The position numbers were made by a program, and so were the translations under genes. Below, one piece after another: positions 4,977-41,089 of a DNA stretch of 41,089 nucleotides. Origin of the DNA: Oscillatoria sp. HE19RPO (GTDB lineage Bacteria > Cyanobacteriota > Cyanobacteriia > Cyanobacteriales > Laspinemataceae); contig NZ_JAMXOT010000316.1 of assembly GCF_024220515.1 (NCBI RefSeq), positions 1-41,089 on the forward strand. Direction: 5' to 3'. Position 1 is the first letter of the stretch; each line of letters begins with the position of its first letter. The notes beneath the pieces were generated by a model. That model worked only from the letters and a program-made list of their open reading frames with translations, made no database searches and was not told the DNA's origin.

Positions 4977-5957
4977 ATGGGTACAGCATTGCAGTCTCAG
5001 AGGAATCGGAGTTATGCCATTATTGGCACTGGGGCGATCGGCGGATTTTATGGGGCGAAACTCCAGCAGGCGGGGTTTGAGGTGCATTTTTTGCTGCATA
5101 GCGATTATCAGTTCGTGCGGCAGCGCGGATTAAGGGTGGATTCGGTTTGGGGGGACTTTACTCTCAACTCCCTGAATGTTTATAACGATGTCCACCAAAT
5201 GCCACCTTGTGATGTGGTCATTGTTGCTCTAAAAACCACCCGCAATTCTTTATTAACCAATTTACTGCCGCCGGTTTTGAAAGAATCTGGGGCGGTATTA
5301 ATGTTACAAAATGGTCTGGGTAACGAAGAGGCAGTCGCCCCGATTGTTGGTCCTGCTCATATTCTGGGTGGACTATGCTTTATTTGTTCTAATAAAGTCG
5401 GCGAGGGACATATTCACCACTTGGATTATGGCACAATTACCCTGGGGGAATATGCACCGGATTATCAACCCTTGGGAATCACCGCTACTTTGCGAAACAT
5501 TGCCGGAGATTTTGAAACCGCTGGAATTCCCATCCAATTTGCAGAAGATTTACTCCTCGCCCGTTGGAAAAAATTGATTTGGAATATTCCTTATAATGGC
5601 TTGTCCGTGGTTTTAAATGCCCGAACTGATGAAATTATGGAAAATGAATCCACGCGACTTTTATCCGAACAATTAATGAGGGAAGTCGTCGCAGTTGCCG
5701 CTGCTTATGGGAGGGAAATTCCCGAAAGCTTTATTCAAAAAATGCTGGACCATACCGCTAAGATGAAGCCCTATATTACCAGTATGAAATTGGATTACGA
5801 CCAGCACCGACCCTTAGAAGTAGAATCGATTGTGGGTAATCCTCTACAAGCAGCGATCGCCAAACAAATCCCCGTCCTCAAAATAGCCATGCTTTACGCC
5901 CAATTAAACTTTATAAACACTCAAATCCAAGCCACCCCCCGTCTCCCCCGTTCGTAG
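4977..5957 (+). CDS. Ketopantoate reductase-like NADP-dependent dehydrogenase
   Basis: A 326-aa protein with an N-terminal Rossmann motif GTGAIGGFYGAKL (about residues 16-28), the family motif VVIVALKTTRN and LQNGLGNEE, and a C-terminal helical domain with the catalytic-lysine region ARWKKLIWNIPYNGLS. This is the ApbA/PanE family, which reduces 2-dehydropantoate to pantoate, although the final substrate-contact motif reads EVESIVGNP rather than the usual form, so another 2-keto acid is possible. No well-spaced ribosome binding site precedes the ATG (GGGAG lies only one base away). The last residues (PRLPRS) and the TAG stop fall inside a palindromic repeat copy. Confidence 0.85.
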   Translation: MGTALQSQRNRSYAIIGTGAIGGFYGAKLQQAGFEVHFLLHSDYQFVRQRGLRVDSVWGDFTLNSLNVYNDVHQMPPCDVVIVALKTTRNSLLTNLLPPVLKESGAVLMLQNGLGNEEAVAPIVGPAHILGGLCFICSNKVGEGHIHHLDYGTITLGEYAPDYQPLGITATLRNIAGDFETAGIPIQFAEDLLLARWKKLIWNIPYNGLSVVLNARTDEIMENESTRLLSEQLMREVVAVAAAYGREIPESFIQKMLDHTAKMKPYITSMKLDYDQHRPLEVESIVGNPLQAAIAKQIPVLKIAMLYAQLNFINTQIQATPRLPRS

Positions 5958-6083
5958 TAACGACTTCAGTCGTTATCTTCTCCCCCGTTCGTAGTAACGA
6001 CTTCAGTCGTTCTCTTTCCCCCGTTCGTAGTAACGACTTCAGTCGTTCTCTTTCCCCCGTTCGTAGTAACGACTTCAGTCGTT
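5950..6083 (+). repeat. Four tandem copies of the AACGACTTCAGTCGTT palindrome
   Basis: Copies begin at 5950, 5987, 6023 and 6059, i.e. steps of 37, 36 and 36 bases. Each has the sequence GTTCGTAGTAACGACT followed by TCAGTCGTT. The 11-12-base linkers are nearly identical (CTCTTTCCCCC), so this is a tandem duplication of the whole unit and not a CRISPR array. Each copy can form a 7-bp stem. The array separates the ketopantoate reductase-like gene from the class II aldolase on the same strand. Confidence 0.95.
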
Positions 6084-6114
6084 CTCTTTCCCCCCTAAAC
6101 CACCCCGCACAATT

Positions 6115-6888
6115 ATGGATAAACGCTTAATCAAACCCGGACTCCCCCAACCCCCCACATTCGATCGCCTCCGAGATGAAAGATTATATCGAAAACAACG
6201 GTTAGCAGCCGCATTTCGCCTATTCGCTCATTTTGGATTTGATGAAGGCGTGGCGGGTCATATTACAGTCCGAGACCCCGAATTTCCTAACCAATTCTGG
6301 GTCAATCCCTTTGGAATGTATTTCGGTCATATTCGCGTTTCGGACCTAATATTAGTCAACCATCAAGGGGAAATTTTAGAAGGCGATCGCCCGATTAATG
6401 CCGCTGGATTTGCCATTCATTCCCAAATCCATCAAGCGCGTCCCGATGTCATCGCGGCAGTACATACTCATTCCCTCTATGGCAAAACCTGGTCCACCCT
6501 AGGACGACTTCTTGACCCTCTCACTCAAGATGCCTGTGCCTTCTACGGGGATCATGCCTTATTTGATGACTATACCGGCGTGGTGTTAGAGATAAGTGAG
6601 GGCGAACGATTAGCGCAAACCTTGGGAAACTCTAAAGCGATCGTCCTTCGCAATCATGGATTACTCACCGTGGGTCATTCCGTGGATGAGGCAAGCTGGT
6701 GGTTTATAACAATGGATCGGTCCTGTCAAAGTCAACTGATGGCAGAGGCAGCAGGAAAACCCATCGCTATTGCGCCAGAAATTGCTCAATTGACTTATGC
6801 TCAGGTGGGAAGTCATTACATGGGGTGGTTTAGCTTTCAGTCACTTTATGACATGATCGTTCGTCAGCAGCCGGATTTATTGGAATGA
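6115..6888 (+). CDS. Class II aldolase/adducin family protein
   Basis: A 257-aa protein of the class II aldolase fold, which uses zinc for aldol cleavage or decarboxylation of small sugar phosphates or related acids. The metal-binding His pair is in IAAVHTHS (about residues 117-124) and a third His in LRNHGLLTVG (about 179-188). An early motif GFDEGVAGHITVRDP matches the phosphate-binding region. Length is normal for the family and resembles the 'adducin-like' group rather than a specific fuculose or ribulose enzyme, so the substrate is not assigned. It lies downstream of a reductase on the same strand, separated by the tandem repeats. Confidence 0.88.
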   Translation: MDKRLIKPGLPQPPTFDRLRDERLYRKQRLAAAFRLFAHFGFDEGVAGHITVRDPEFPNQFWVNPFGMYFGHIRVSDLILVNHQGEILEGDRPINAAGFAIHSQIHQARPDVIAAVHTHSLYGKTWSTLGRLLDPLTQDACAFYGDHALFDDYTGVVLEISEGERLAQTLGNSKAIVLRNHGLLTVGHSVDEASWWFITMDRSCQSQLMAEAAGKPIAIAPEIAQLTYAQVGSHYMGWFSFQSLYDMIVRQQPDLLE

Positions 6889-6914
6889 ATAGGGAGTGGT
6901 TCAATTCTTCTCCC

Positions 6915-8390
6915 TTATTCTCGGAAATTGGAGGCAATTGTTTTCAAAAAACTAATGCTAGGGGCGAAAAAGTATTCGCCTCCCTGCATGGTGACAAAGT
7001 GATAAAAATCAAACTCAGTAACCTCATTTTCTCCCCACTGATTGTGCCATTTTTGTCGCGATGTCTTGGGTTTTCCCTGTCCAACTAGGGCATCAAACCC
7101 CGTGGTGTATGTTACAAAATGATGATTATTTGACCAGTTTTTTTGCATGAACATAAACTGGTTGAATAAATCACTTTGAAAGCATAAAAATAGCAGTCCC
7201 ACCTTTTCATCTTCCCCTGGATATCGTGTCAGGTTTTGTAAATGAGCCAATTGATTATTAAAGCGAACTTGCGGGGAGAGGGAGTGATGTCGGGCATTGG
7301 GAAGTTCGCCATAGCTGATTGCACGACGCACGATGCGATGTTGGCGTTGTTCCTCGATGGTTTGATGTCGGTCATTTTTGTCTCCCCGAGGATTCACTTT
7401 GCGGATGTGGGCATGAAATGGACATTTTACCCCGCGCAAATCCTCATCATAGTTGAAATTATTAGGGACTGGATCAACATTTTGTTCTGTAGGAAACTGG
7501 GTGATTGGCGTTCCATCTCGGAAACGACCGACTACTAATGCTCCCGCTCTTTCTTCCTCTTTTTTTGATAACTTCAAGGTTTGAAAAAGAGCTTTTTCGG
7601 CGGCCTTAAATCCGGATACATCTTGTTCAAGTTTGCGGTAAACACAATAGCTACCAAAACTATACTCTCCCTCTCCCAAGGGGTCTTTAACTAACACTAA
7701 TTCTAAGGGGGCACTGGGGTCCCATTTGTCGATGCCTTGTTGTTTAGCCCGATCTAGGTCCTCTTTAAAAAATAAGGGCTGACTGACTCCATCTCTAAAT
7801 CCAAAATGCTCGATCGCCTGCCCTTTACTATTTCTCAGAACTCGTCCAACTTCTGTGTTGACAATATCCGCAATCGGTTCTAATTCTTCAAAGAGGATTT
7901 TAGCCTGATTGTTCAACTGACTCCAATCGTCATCGGCAAGGAGAATGAAACCATGAATTTGAGTTTGAAATCCCGGTTGCCAGTCCTCAACTGGTGGGTC
8001 ATCCAAAATGCTCCTAAAATTGGCAAGGCCAACCTTGAAAGCAGGGCTGGGAAATTCTCGATTTCCGCCGACTTGAAACTTAAATCCTAGGGCTTCATAT
8101 CCTTTGTAGGAGAGGAGGAAATTGGCAAATAATCCGGGAGAAGCCCCGGTATTTTTCTGGGGGAATTGTCCGCCCGTTTCCCCTTGCCTTTGAGCCGAGG
8201 TAATCCGGGTTTTGGCAAAGTTGGCAATCCACTGTCGCACGGCATTTCGGTTGGGTTTAAATTGGATAAAAATATGAGCAGAATAGTCACAGTCGTGACT
8301 GGTGAGGATATTTCCTTGTAAATCTGCTAACAAGGGTTGATAGATCGGGTTGTTCGGATCGATATTGCTTTGAGTTAAGTCAACTACCAT
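6915..8390 (-). CDS. Dyp-type heme peroxidase
   Basis: A 491-aa dye-decolourising peroxidase. The signature GFRDG at 197-201 carries the distal Asp and sits in the usual EHFGFRDGVSQP context. The proximal heme His is His328 in CPFHAHIRKVNPRGD. The length fits the longer cyanobacterial/fungal branch. No signal peptide or Tat motif is visible, so the enzyme is predicted cytoplasmic. GGAGA lies about nine bases before the ATG as ribosome binding site. It is divergent from the RiPP-like locus and shares a 364-base spacer with it. It oxidises bulky substrates with H2O2; a link with the neighbouring locus is only positional. Confidence 0.93.
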   Translation of the reverse strand: MVVDLTQSNIDPNNPIYQPLLADLQGNILTSHDCDYSAHIFIQFKPNRNAVRQWIANFAKTRITSAQRQGETGGQFPQKNTGASPGLFANFLLSYKGYEALGFKFQVGGNREFPSPAFKVGLANFRSILDDPPVEDWQPGFQTQIHGFILLADDDWSQLNNQAKILFEELEPIADIVNTEVGRVLRNSKGQAIEHFGFRDGVSQPLFFKEDLDRAKQQGIDKWDPSAPLELVLVKDPLGEGEYSFGSYCVYRKLEQDVSGFKAAEKALFQTLKLSKKEEERAGALVVGRFRDGTPITQFPTEQNVDPVPNNFNYDEDLRGVKCPFHAHIRKVNPRGDKNDRHQTIEEQRQHRIVRRAISYGELPNARHHSLSPQVRFNNQLAHLQNLTRYPGEDEKVGLLFLCFQSDLFNQFMFMQKNWSNNHHFVTYTTGFDALVGQGKPKTSRQKWHNQWGENEVTEFDFYHFVTMQGGEYFFAPSISFLKTIASNFRE

Positions 8391-23570: not shown

Positions 23571-24359
23571 TCAAGCCCCCATCCCGGAATATTGGCGCAA
23601 CCCGCGACGCCACAACCAGCGATTAATAATCCAAAAGATTGCCACCCAACCGCACATAATAGCAAGACTCGGGAGAACATTCACAGGTAATCCCACCAAT
23701 AACGCTGCTGGAAAGTGAATCATATAGGGAAACGGTGTCCATAAAACCACTTGGCGCACTGATTCCGGGAACACCTCTAAGGGCGCAACCATGCCAGAAA
23801 AAAACAGATAAAATAGAAACCAAAATTGCTCGATCGCATTCGCCCGTTCTATCCAAAAACACAGGAGTGCAAAGGTATATTGAATCAAAAATCGCAGGAT
23901 AAATCCCAGCATAACCACCCCAATCCACAACAAAAAACGTCCTAAATCGGGCAGCCAAAACGCATCGGGATATAAGGCAAAAAAGATTAAAATCAAGCCG
24001 CAAACAAAGGGGAGGCGAGCACCGCGTTCTGCTAAATGGGCGGCAACATGATGCCACACCGGGTCCAACGGTTGTAATAACCGCATGGAGAGTTTTCCTT
24101 CCACCACTTCTTTTTCAAACTCCCAAACCACCCACACCACATTGAATTGTCGGACAATAAACGCCGCTAAAAAATACCGAGCAAACTGCACGGGATTTAA
24201 GGCAAAATCGCCGGTTTGAGAGGCTTCTAACCAGATTCCCATTAAAATAAACGGCAAAGTACCCGACAGCGCCCATAGCACAACTTCGGCGCGGTATTCC
24301 AGCATATAAGCATAATGAACGGAGAATAAGGTGGGAGCAATTCTGAAAAAACGTCTCAT
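23571..24359 (-). CDS. ABC-2 family exporter permease B
   Basis: A 262-aa membrane protein with about six hydrophobic helices. FEKEVVEGKLSMRLLQPLDPVWHHV is the cytoplasmic loop typical of this ABC-2 (PF06182) group and corresponds to the GTLDFVLLKP loop in permease A. It is downstream of the ATPase gene on the same strand, with 132 bases containing two copies of the AGAAACC palindrome between. It ends seven bases from the chemoreceptor stop, tail to tail. Confidence 0.88.
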   Translation of the reverse strand: MRRFFRIAPTLFSVHYAYMLEYRAEVVLWALSGTLPFILMGIWLEASQTGDFALNPVQFARYFLAAFIVRQFNVVWVVWEFEKEVVEGKLSMRLLQPLDPVWHHVAAHLAERGARLPFVCGLILIFFALYPDAFWLPDLGRFLLWIGVVMLGFILRFLIQYTFALLCFWIERANAIEQFWFLFYLFFSGMVAPLEVFPESVRQVVLWTPFPYMIHFPAALLVGLPVNVLPSLAIMCGWVAIFWIINRWLWRRGLRQYSGMGA

Positions 24360-26545: not shown

Positions 26546-26730
26546 AAAAACCCGCAGGCTTAAGCCTGGGGCTACACGGACGAAGCCTGCCTACGCAGGC
26601 TGAAGAGTAAAATAGGTCGAGTACAACGGGATTTGGTATCATACCAAATCCGGGTATAAAAAATTGTTGTAATAGAGTAGCCCGCGCAGGCGGGCTTTGT
26701 CCGTGTAGCCCCAGGCTTCAGCCTGCGGGC
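26546..26730. mobile_element. MITE-like palindromic element, copy 1
   Basis: About 185 bases with arms that start AAAAACCCGCAGGCT and end AGCCTGCGGGC. The arms are about 52 bases long and inverted with several mismatches. The centre has a perfect 21-base odd palindrome at 26630-26650 (GATTTGGTAT, C, ATACCAAATC). A second copy lies at 31421-31611. No transposase is encoded. It fills the spacer between the hydrolase and recF, and one arm runs into the hydrolase upstream frame. Confidence 0.8.
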
Positions 26731-31420: not shown

Positions 31421-31611
31421 AAAAACCCGCAGGCTGAAGCCTGGGGCTACACAGACGAAGCCTGCCTCCGCAGGCTGATCGATGAAAATCGACTTTTAAC
31501 AACCGGATTTGGTATGATCCCAAATCCGGTTGTTAAAAGTCAGTTTTCGCTTTTAGCCCGCGCAGGCGGGCTTCGTCCGTATAGCCTCCGGGCTTCAGCC
31601 TGCGGGTTTTT
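31421..31611. mobile_element. MITE-like palindromic element, copy 2
   Basis: 191 bases bounded by a perfect 21-base terminal inverted repeat (AAAAACCCGCAGGCTGAAGCC at the left and its complement at the right). The middle holds another perfect 22-bp stem around TATGATC: it begins GACTTTTAACAACCGG and ends TTGTTAAAAGTC. A partial repeat of that stem (GACTTTTAACAACCGGATT) follows at 31616. It carries no ORF and its left end abuts the transposase remnant. It is a second copy of the 26546-26730 family. Confidence 0.85.
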
Positions 31612-39448: not shown

Positions 39449-40306
39449 TTAAGCGGCTGATAATTCCCGCAGAGGTTCCCCCTCACGCACTCGACGCCCT
39501 ACTGCTGCTGCCACGGGACCCAAACTTTGCACCAACTCGACCATTTCGGGAAGAGACAGCGCCTGTCTGGCATCGGAAACCGACTGTTCCGGTTCTGGAT
39601 GACACTCAATAATCAACCCATCGGCCCCTGCTGCCACTGCTGCCCTTGCCAATCCTGCCACCAATTCTCGCTTCCCTGCCGCATGAGACGGGTCCACCAT
39701 CACCGGCAAATGGGTAATCTGTTTCAGGGCCACCACTGCCCCCAAATCCAAAATATTCCTTGTGAACGAATCGAAACTGCGGATCCCCCGTTCACAGAGA
39801 ATCACATCGGGATTCCCATGAGACATGATATATTCTGCGGCGAACACAAATTCTTCCAGAGTCGCTGCCAGTCCCCGCTTCAACAACACAGGTTTACCCG
39901 CTTCCCCTAATGCTTTGAGCAAGTCGAAATTTTGCATATTCCGACTGCCTACTTGTAACAGATCCGCGTGGGCGACAATGCTTTCAATTTGATTAATTGA
40001 CATCACCTCCGTCACCACGGGAATCCCATAGCGCTGACGCACTGCGGATAAAATAGTTAACCCCGCCTCTCCCATGCCTTGAAACGAGTAAGGGGAGGTG
40101 CGGGGTTTGAAGACGCCACCACGTAACAGTTGGACGGGTGCATGGGCGAGGTGACGGGCAACGGTTTCCATTTGTTCGAGACTCTCCACAGCACAGGGAC
40201 CGCCGATAATTAATAAGTCTTGGCCCCCGATAGTGGTGCGATCGCCAATGGAGATGGCGGTTTGTTGCGTGGGATGAGATTTGCTGACGAGTTTGGCGTT
40301 TTTCAT
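39449..40306 (-). CDS. aroF: 3-deoxy-7-phosphoheptulonate synthase (DAHP synthase), type I-beta
   Basis: A 285-aa enzyme that condenses phosphoenolpyruvate and erythrose 4-phosphate, the first step of aromatic amino acid synthesis. GGPCAVES, RGGVFKPRTSPYSFQG, LLKRG, CERGIRSF and MVDPSHAAGKRELV are the family signatures with metal and PEP ligands. The protein has only the catalytic barrel: no N-terminal ferredoxin-like domain and no chorismate mutase or ACT domain, which in related enzymes give feedback control. ATG 40306 has AAGGAG seven bases upstream and is preferred over the in-frame TTG at 40327. An aromatic-rich leader ORF and a terminator lie just upstream. Confidence 0.95.
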   Translation of the reverse strand: MKNAKLVSKSHPTQQTAISIGDRTTIGGQDLLIIGGPCAVESLEQMETVARHLAHAPVQLLRGGVFKPRTSPYSFQGMGEAGLTILSAVRQRYGIPVVTEVMSINQIESIVAHADLLQVGSRNMQNFDLLKALGEAGKPVLLKRGLAATLEEFVFAAEYIMSHGNPDVILCERGIRSFDSFTRNILDLGAVVALKQITHLPVMVDPSHAAGKRELVAGLARAAVAAGADGLIIECHPEPEQSVSDARQALSLPEMVELVQSLGPVAAAVGRRVREGEPLRELSAA

Positions 40307-40356
40307 GGAATTACTCCTTTTGTACAAATAATCTACAAATAATCAAGATGGACGAT

Positions 40357-40482
40357 AAAAAAGCCCGGAACCTGTTCAAAGTTCCGGGCGGAGGCGATTT
40401 GGCATCATGACAAAACCTACCCAGAACTCTTTCTGAGCCAAAAGTAGAAGCCAAAAAACCAGTTAGGGAGATGGGATGTCAT
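40357..40482 (-). promoter_or_regulatory. Predicted translation-coupled transcription attenuator of aroF
   Basis: Minus strand, in order: leader ORF 40482-40417; antiterminator partner AGAGTTCTGGG (40430-40420) covering the last codons; terminator stem GCCCGGAAC (40389-40381), loop TTTGAACAG, GTTCCGGGC (40371-40363), then U6 (40362-40357). The first segment pairs with CCCGGAACTTT (40388-40378) over 11 bp with two G-U pairs, which uses the left arm of the terminator, so the two folds exclude each other. CTCCCTAACT (40470-40461) can pair weakly with AGTTCTGGG, as region 1 with region 2. A ribosome slowed on the aromatic codons would free the antiterminator. Confidence 0.8.
40417..40482 (-). CDS. 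Aromatic-rich leader peptide of aroF (21 aa)
   Basis: A 21-codon ORF, ATG at 40482 and TAG at 40417. Eight of 21 residues are not evenly spread: the stretch NWFFGFYFW has seven aromatic residues (Trp, Phe, Phe, Phe, Tyr, Phe, Trp) in nine positions, followed by LRKSSG and the stop. AAAGGAAAAAGG lies eight bases before the ATG as ribosome binding site. The start is MTSHLP. The composition, position (about 110 bases before aroF) and following terminator match leader peptides such as PheL and TrpL of enterobacteria. The peptide itself is presumably not functional. Confidence 0.82.
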   Translation of the reverse strand: MTSHLPNWFFGFYFWLRKSSG

Positions 40483-40525
40483 GGCGATCGCCTTTTTCCT
40501 TTACGAGAGAGTGTTTCAAACCAAC

Positions 40526-40597
40526 AAAAAACCGCAGCGTTGCTTCTGCGGTTCACCAGCGGTTTCCATGTCAAAATGGATTCACTGCCGGTGAACC
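40526..40597 (-). terminator. Second terminator-like hairpin and competing stem upstream of the aroF leader
   Basis: On the minus strand AACCGCAG (40553-40546), loop AAGCAACG, CTGCGGTT (40537-40530) then U-rich GGTTTTTTG gives an 8-bp terminator. Just upstream, GGTTCACC (40597-40590) pairs with GGTGAACC (40557-40550) and shares the AACC with the terminator's left arm, so the stems compete. It could be a terminator of an upstream transcript or a second control stage. A short ATG ORF (METAGEPQ...) runs through it but is not aromatic-rich. Confidence 0.6.
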
Positions 40598-40795
40598 AAG
40601 ATAAACCAAAAATAAAAGAAGGGGCTGCGGTTTAACATGATGATTAGAATTGATGAGTCAATTGAATTTATGCCTAGATAGACTAAACCTAACAAAGCTC
40701 AAACCCGATGTCAACCCCCCAGTTGCTATAACTTTTAACCCGGATTTCTACCTAGAGGGAGAGGAGTGCGTTGGTGGAGCCAGCACTTCTATCCT

Positions 40796-40976
40796 CGTGA
40801 CGTGGCTGAAGCCGCGTCACGCTCTTTTGGAGGCTCTGCCTCCAGTCCCCAAGCAAGGGTTTAAGCTGCCTATTGTACCTGTCACGGCTTCAAATCCTCA
40901 TCAAAGGTACAGGCGGCAGAGCCGCCAATTGTGCGTGACGCGGCTTCAGCCACGTCACGAGAAAGCCACGTCACGA
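40796..40976. mobile_element. MITE-like element with perfect 26-bp inverted ends
   Basis: Perfect 26-base inverted repeats at 40796-40821 and 40934-40959 (starting CGTGACGTGGCTGAAGCC) flank 112 bases whose inner arms also pair (GGAGGCTCTGCCTCC with GGCGGCAGAGCCGCC). A partial copy of the end follows at 40965-40976 (GCCACGTCACGA). There is no transposase. No gene is supported elsewhere between 40598 and the window edge; the last 40 bases hold the start of another GC-rich repeat. Confidence 0.8.
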
Positions 40977-41089
40977 GAAATGCACTAAGGGAACTCCAAA
41001 AAATAAAATCTCCAAAACGTTCGTTCGTATGACGGATCAACGGAGTAGCCCCCTCAATGTAGGGGCGCAATGCGCAGGCCCTCCGGAGG

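Follow-up and report, generated by a model that had tools for sequence, protein, structure and literature searches.

On the minus strand near one end of the window, as we call the whole stretch of 41,089 nucleotides of Oscillatoria sp. HE19RPO DNA that was analysed, lies aroF (39449..40306, with the ATG at 40306 and the stop at 39449), which encodes a class I DAHP synthase of 285 amino acids. A preliminary description of this DNA had pointed to a short ORF rich in aromatic residues in front of the gene and had interpreted it as part of an attenuator of the trp/phe type. On re-reading the sequence we found this ORF, here called leader 2, as it had been described: MTSHLPNWFFGFYFWLRKSSG, 21 codons, positions 40417..40482 of the minus strand, containing the stretch NWFFGFYFW in which seven of nine residues are aromatic. 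The good ribosome binding site that had been ascribed to it corresponds to an AAGG located 8 nt before the ATG. The ORF is followed by terminator 2 (40357..40388, minus strand), made up of the arms CCCGGAACT and GGTTCCGGG and a T6 tract. Its stem runs from 40389 to 40363, with the left arm CCCGGAACT at 40388-40380, and the tract (40362-40357) ends 51 positions upstream of the aroF start codon, the distance given before. The codons S-S-G just before the stop of leader 2 make up the left arm of antiterminator 2 (AGTTCTGGG, 40420..40428, minus strand), as established by column pairing. Its right arm is identical to the left arm of terminator 2, and the two pairings are mutually exclusive. The antiterminator had been proposed to extend over 11 bp; nine of these columns were tested across species and stood, the remaining extension being seen by eye in the window only.

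Absent from the preliminary description was a second unit just upstream (40638-40526, minus strand), and both upstream units of aroF are built alike, with an aromatic leader followed by an antiterminator/terminator arrangement. Leader 1 (MLNRSPFFYFWFILVHRQ, 18 codons, 40582..40638) includes within its codons the left arm of antiterminator 1 (GGTTCACCGGC, 40587..40597, by column pairing). The corresponding right arm (GCTGGTGAACC, 40550..40560) overlaps by 4 nt with the left arm of terminator 1, which comprises AACCGCAG and CTGCGGTT plus a T-run (40526..40553, recognized by pairing and a terminator scan); with these four bases in common, the two pairings of this unit are mutually exclusive as well. 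Unit 1 and leader 2 are separated by a median of 28 nt, and by no more than 60 nt in 87 of the 92 loci counted, among which are duplicates. In the window a small hairpin (TCCAT/ATGGA, 40581-40563, minus strand) sits between the two arms of antiterminator 1, and comparable hairpins with other letters (GTTTCC/GGAAAC etc.) were seen by eye in many relatives; perhaps this is a pause hairpin.

A promoter-like sequence, recognized by consensus only, precedes leader 1 by 47 nt (TTGACA - 17 nt - TAGGTT, 40686..40714, minus strand). The pattern TTGACN, 16-18 nt, TANNNT, ending 25-62 nt before leader 1, occurs in 80 of 85 distinct upstream regions (L039 was omitted from the count as too short) and in 0.5% of base-shuffled regions, it being understood that the 85 real regions are related. 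A stricter promoter scan of positions 40280-41089 of the window reported no promoter. Upstream of the promoter-like site an inverted repeat pair is found around GTGACGTGGCTGAAGCCGCGTCACG (40782-40990), which by eye may represent a dispersed palindromic or MITE-like element; cmscan on this region returned a sub-threshold match to MIR820 (51.4 of 196 bits). Elsewhere in the window there are two matches to the CRISPR-DR28 direct repeat (26678-26701 and 31554-31577, minus strand), around 4.9 kb apart, which are possibly part of one or more CRISPR arrays.

The preliminary description had stated that the synthase lacks any feedback domain, and the Pfam annotation agrees. The window's AroF matches PF00793 and the related barrel NeuB, is of the TIGR01361 type, and thus consists of the catalytic domain only; no regulatory domain and no PF18152 was found in it by Pfam. 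A paralogue encoded in the same genome (354 aa, contig C412) does possess the ferredoxin-like (FXD) regulatory domain PF18152 (1.1e-16). No such aromatic leader was recovered upstream of the FXD-type synthases examined, nor was an upstream ORF with six aromatics in nine residues found for fifteen more distant DAHP synthases, taken from further lineages of the phylum (L143-L157). Three of the fifteen (L143, L148 and L155) have an upstream ORF with five aromatics in nine; the one of L143 immediately precedes the gene, in AT-rich surroundings, and no terminator was seen by eye. A homologue of 60% identity from another class (L138, genome G377) is preceded by one aromatic leader (MMKRFYYFSFYPNALRC, near 600-800), accompanied, judged by eye and in this one case, by a terminator-like repeat and a complementary arm. 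Similar attenuators were also considered for the trpE-like genes (22 loci) and the pheA-type genes (13 loci) of 13 relatives, and were rejected. Within 500 nt upstream of these genes no short ORF with five aromatics in nine and no perfect-stem terminator was found, in a crude scan that took the longest ORF per locus as the gene and would miss imperfect stems. In five of these loci (L170, L178, L183, L186 and L190) a short ORF contains two Trp in a span of six residues, and a terminator is lacking.

To define the conservation of the arrangement, orthologues of aroF were collected at a threshold of at least 65% identity from 59 related genomes and from contigs of named genomes (the best 80 of 556 relatives), which yielded 103 loci. 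Five of them were dropped for short upstream sequence (L008, L035, L042, L055 and L075); the 98 that were read correspond to 90 distinct upstream regions, and three leaders overlooked by the pattern search were added by hand. Genera in the set include Laspinema, Oscillatoria, Lyngbya, Nostoc, Calothrix, Brasilonema, Phormidesmis, Leptolyngbya and Hydrococcus, and the nearest named relatives of the window's gene, among the best 80 of 556, are Laspinema. An aromatic leader upstream of aroF in other cyanobacteria, for which a search had been proposed in the preliminary description, is indeed found together with the orthologue: 85 of the 90 distinct upstream regions have both leaders, four have leader 2 alone (L014, L019, L023 and L080) and one has leader 1 alone (L022), which puts leader 1 in 86 and leader 2 in 89 of them. 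In L020 leader 1 stops early, directly before the arm, and we infer that the arm would still be within reach of a terminating ribosome.

The phylum was scanned with RNA models of unit 1 (R1) and unit 2 (R2) in 386 genomes, using stricter filters by which weak matches may be lost. An aroF orthologue was present in 38 of these genomes, in 37 of them with an identity of at least 69% across most of its length and in one (G415) in pieces. R1 matched 37 of the 38 (not G182) and so did R2 (not G040). Among the 348 genomes without the orthologue, R1 matched one (G083) and R2 matched two weakly (G124 and G164). Every matched genome had a single match per model, and wherever R2 matched an orthologue genome, the coordinates place the match immediately upstream of aroF, with G415 as the exception. 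The match in G083 was considered as a leader 1 without aroF and rejected as such, since the leader adjoins a decaying remnant of the gene. In the corresponding stretch (L131, 3305-3656) leader 1 is kept before the deleted, decaying aroF and terminator 1 is gone, so to speak a fossil of the putative RNA switch. For G415, the idea of a detached element was likewise rejected, since both units have stayed intact and the gene itself is interrupted by an insertion. The two pieces of the gene are around 6 kb apart (L132, 824-7532), with an integrase-like ORF (label by eye) at 5943-7220; presumably the insertion resembles the elements that are excised during heterocyst development. The R2 matches in G124 and G164 were taken as chance (E about 1e-3, no DAHP synthase match in the stretches examined). 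The orthologues of two of the 38 genomes contain one in-frame stop each in the matched stretch (G094:C1:3292646-3293467 and G169:C6:2403070-2403876), and R1 and R2 both match upstream of them.

To specify the coding constraint, a codon alignment of 43 unit 1 and 50 unit 2 representatives was anchored on the Trp codon, as all of them have one. The TGG of leader 1 is invariant in the column alignment of the 43, and the core TGG of leader 2 is nearly invariant among the 50 (L072 is without it). Conservation of the aromatic codons had been named beforehand as a check, and it came out in favour of a coding role: the aromatic codons are kept through synonymous and aromatic-to-aromatic changes, those for Phe and Tyr beside the Trp varying chiefly between TAT and TAC or TTT and TTC or by F/Y exchange, and the flanking codons drift. 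Within the core (the four codons before the first Trp in leader 1 and five core codons in leader 2, with 47 of 50 rows in register), 36 of 38 departures from the consensus codon in leader 1 and 62 of 69 in leader 2 stay aromatic, where a share of 22% (2 of 9 single mutations) is expected; because the rows are related these departures are not independent events, and on counting distinct departures only, 11 of 13 (leader 1) and 10 of 15 (leader 2) are aromatic. This constraint on the codons suggests that the leaders are translated. The stop codon also keeps a nearly fixed distance: counted from the first Trp it is at +8 in 38 of 43 leaders 1, and counted from the last Trp it is at +7 in 46 of 50 leaders 2.

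A chance origin of the aromatic leader was rejected. In 20 first-order Markov sequences of the length of the window, ORFs of 12-40 codons with at least seven aromatics in nine residues numbered 0.05 on average (the window has one) and those with at least six numbered 0.5 (the window has three). Among the three is an unrelated 20-codon ORF on the minus strand at 23777-23839 (MRSSNFGFYFICFFLAWLRP, six aromatics in nine), which is about at chance level. The Markov excess alone is modest, and chance is excluded because the leaders are conserved more than because of this comparison.

Pairing in the column alignments is extensive for all four stems. For antiterminator 1, 93.4% of cells are paired and 6 of 11 pairs show changes on both sides; for terminator 1, 100% are paired and 3 of 8 pairs show such changes; the corresponding figures are 94.4% and 3 of 9 pairs for antiterminator 2, and 95.3% and 2 of 9 pairs for terminator 2. 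When the partner was slid, pairing amounted to at most 52.6% (antiterminator 1), 61.3% (terminator 1), 57.9% (antiterminator 2) and 71.1% (terminator 2). The percentage paired and the covariation score were reached by none of 500 shuffles for any of the stems, apart from the percentage of terminator 2 (2 of 500). In L073 and L103 the leader codons and the terminator arm differ jointly from the others, with C-G for U-A. The both-side changes of unit 1 exceed nearly all shuffles and all slid versions. The numbers of further pair types, by comparison, fall within the range of the shuffles for terminator 1 (500 of 500), antiterminator 2 (117 of 500) and terminator 2 (81 of 500). Moreover, antiterminator 2 slid by +2 has more both-side changes (6 pairs, 14 cells) than the true register (3 pairs, 7 cells), and terminator 2 slid by +1 or +2 has 4 cells with such changes versus 2. 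Covariation is therefore called weak in unit 2, the arms of which are nearly invariant, and is clear in unit 1. Covariation of the two exclusive stems, which the preliminary description had suggested as a test, is thus partly borne out: the stems are conserved and unit 1 covaries, but in the unit that had been described the signal is modest.

Counting codons from the core Trp, the left arm of the antiterminator starts with the fourth following codon in leader 2 and with the last base of the third in leader 1. With the Trp codon in the A-site, the arm begins 15 nt (leader 2) or 14 nt (leader 1) from the first base of the P-site, which is approximately the edge of the ribosome; by the same geometry a ribosome at the stop codon covers the arm in both leaders. 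On folding the representatives with exposure limited to the RNA from the arm onward and with the right arm of the terminator still unmade, the antiterminator forms in 43 of 43 sequences of unit 1 and in 50 of 50 of unit 2. A ribosome placed at the stop leads to terminator formation in 42 of the 43 unit 1 sequences and in all 50 of unit 2, the sole exception being the window's own unit 1 (terminator 0.48). For full-length unit 2 with the arm exposed, the equilibrium puts the terminator above 0.5 in 38 of 50 sequences and the antiterminator above 0.5 in 8 of 50 (near 0 for the window's own unit 2), and antitermination in this unit must therefore be kinetic, decided during transcription. In unit 1, the inner pairs of the terminator can persist alongside the antiterminator according to the folding. 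When untranslated, unit 1 is predicted to tend toward readthrough (antiterminator above 0.5 in 32 of 43), and in unit 2 the terminator is favoured (44 of 50). A general protector hairpin was not seen in the folding of the 43 unit 1 representatives.

By its sequence features, the anatomy of the locus is that of a pair of classical leader-peptide attenuators of the trpL/pheL/aroR class. The trp/phe-type reading that had been proposed for leader 2 is supported by the sequence tests, and the leader described first is confirmed as one half of a larger arrangement, with what appear to be two attenuators in series before aroF. We consider it probable, at roughly 85%, that these two ribosome-mediated transcription attenuators control the gene, and from the features described we infer the following course of events. 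A single transcript would start upstream of leader 1 and pass through both units. When charged Phe, Tyr and Trp tRNAs are ample, the ribosome would reach the stop codon of the leader and cover its last codons, that is, the left arm of the antiterminator; with the arm covered, the terminator would fold and RNA polymerase would stop. A shortage of any one of these charged tRNAs would make the ribosome stall on the aromatic block and leave the arm free, a stall with the conserved Trp codon in the A-site placing the arm at the 14-15 nt mentioned above. The free arm would then capture the left part of the terminator, and the polymerase would pass. As aroF would be reached only after both gates have been passed, the dynamic range should be multiplied.

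The alternative that survives best is that just one of the two units has a regulatory role. The second, most likely unit 1, would then be a relic, or else would supply the terminator for a short RNA of its own. A Shine-Dalgarno-like motif precedes aroF in 84 of 90 loci and leader 2 in 51 of 89, and leader 1 in 1 of 86, so that 85 of the 86 loci have none before the first leader; in addition, four of the 90 loci do without leader 1 altogether. Yet it is unit 1 that covaries more strongly, its codon constraint equals that of unit 2, it is kept in 86 of 90 loci, and the lineage L022 has retained it as its only unit, for which reasons we regard a single functional unit as improbable.

Less probable still is that the leaders act as arrest peptides. 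In TnaC the nascent chain halts translation in response to a free aromatic compound, and the nascent chain of leader 2, with its conserved GFYFWPR, could in principle do likewise instead of the leader reading charged tRNA. Residues around the aromatic block of leader 2 are conserved (G in 36, P in 37 and R in 38 of the 50 sequences), as this explanation would have it; within the block, however, F, Y and W interchange, unlike in a specific arrest sequence. Arrest by plentiful aromatics would moreover have the wrong sign for a biosynthetic gene, because stalling would switch the gene on. That the ORFs are translated micropeptides or sources of small RNAs with plain terminators and no regulated readthrough is the least credible explanation, as their C-terminal codons are conserved as RNA arms complementing the terminator, which a micropeptide would not need, and as both-side changes lie above the shuffles in unit 1 and a few of them occur in unit 2.

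Control of aroF by two attenuators in series, our preferred reading, invites a broader one, to which we give slightly less than an even chance: RNA control would have replaced allosteric control, the DAHP synthase without the FXD domain having been under gates that sense F/Y/W from early in the history of the phylum. Two gates in series would give a multiplicative, near-digital response when any aromatic amino acid runs short, and would imply that transcription and translation are coupled in cyanobacteria. The early date is suggested because the 60%-identical homologue L138, from another class, has a single aromatic leader. In any case the locus would represent a conserved case of attenuation at the entry to aromatic metabolism in cyanobacteria, the metabolism that is the source of scytonemin (PMC7997468, as far as excerpted) and also feeds engineered aromatics. 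Engineers of aromatic output in Nostoc-type strains would need to take it into account as a control point. If the proposal is right, the coupling of translation to transcription in some cyanobacteria would be tight enough to allow attenuation, an allosteric domain could be exchanged for an RNA switch, and synthetic biology would gain a natural two-stage gate.

In 2010 it was stated that, before the Firmicutes case reported in the same paper and setting aside the atypical ermC leader, no leader peptide system had been shown outside the Proteobacteria and Actinobacteria (PMC2965389), and in 2016 that there were no reliable data on an attenuation mechanism in cyanobacteria (PMC4833913). A transcriptome paper on Synechococcus elongatus mentions attenuation by contrast only, in the part available (PMC3219970). 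Rfam, including T-box, the trpB ncRNA motif and others, contained no family that matched the element at its gathering score; below threshold were the trpB motif RF04312 (25.6 bits versus 59) and anti-hemB RF02837 (18.7 versus 49.5). A search of the open-access literature by title and start of abstract, which leaves subscription journals largely uncovered, found no report of the element.

The trpL and pheL attenuators of Escherichia coli combine codons for the end product with an antiterminator and a terminator that exclude each other. The units before aroF share these properties and a similar geometry. They differ in that the first common step would be controlled and the F/Y/W codons are mixed, in that the antiterminator arm is formed by the leader's own last codons, and in that no general protector hairpin was seen on folding unit 1. 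Another parallel is aroR before aroF of Corynebacterium glutamicum, a leader peptide with Phe-Tyr-Phe in front of a DAHP synthase gene, at which stalling raises transcription; the review excerpt that describes it also names the E. coli trpL and pheL attenuators (PMC11802643). According to that excerpt aroR is one leader and responds to Phe and not to Tyr, whereas here, in a comparison by description only, there are two leaders with Phe, Tyr and Trp codons in another phylum. Likewise, uORFC-13-1 is a candidate Phe-sensing uORF with a terminator before aroF, and is known from 24 representatives in only Acholeplasma and environmental sequences; one uORF is described in the excerpted text versus the two leaders found here, again compared by description only (PMC8632094). 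A tandem arrangement is known from the mgtCBR operon of Salmonella, with the attenuators mgtM and mgtP, termed a singular example in the excerpt (PMC3641672). Two short ORFs share one leader there, each as part of an attenuator, and the sequence suggests the same arrangement before aroF. In mgtCBR the two respond to different signals (ATP and proline), whereas before aroF the same class of codons occurs twice, in front of a biosynthetic gene (PMC3641672, same excerpt). Leader-peptide attenuation (trpL, pheL, aroR) and tandem attenuators (Salmonella mgtCBR) are therefore already known. As far as we have searched, what would be new is the phylum, with good evidence in cyanobacteria, the apparent doubling for one class of signal, and the association of the putative attenuators with a synthase that is without the regulatory domain found in its paralogue.
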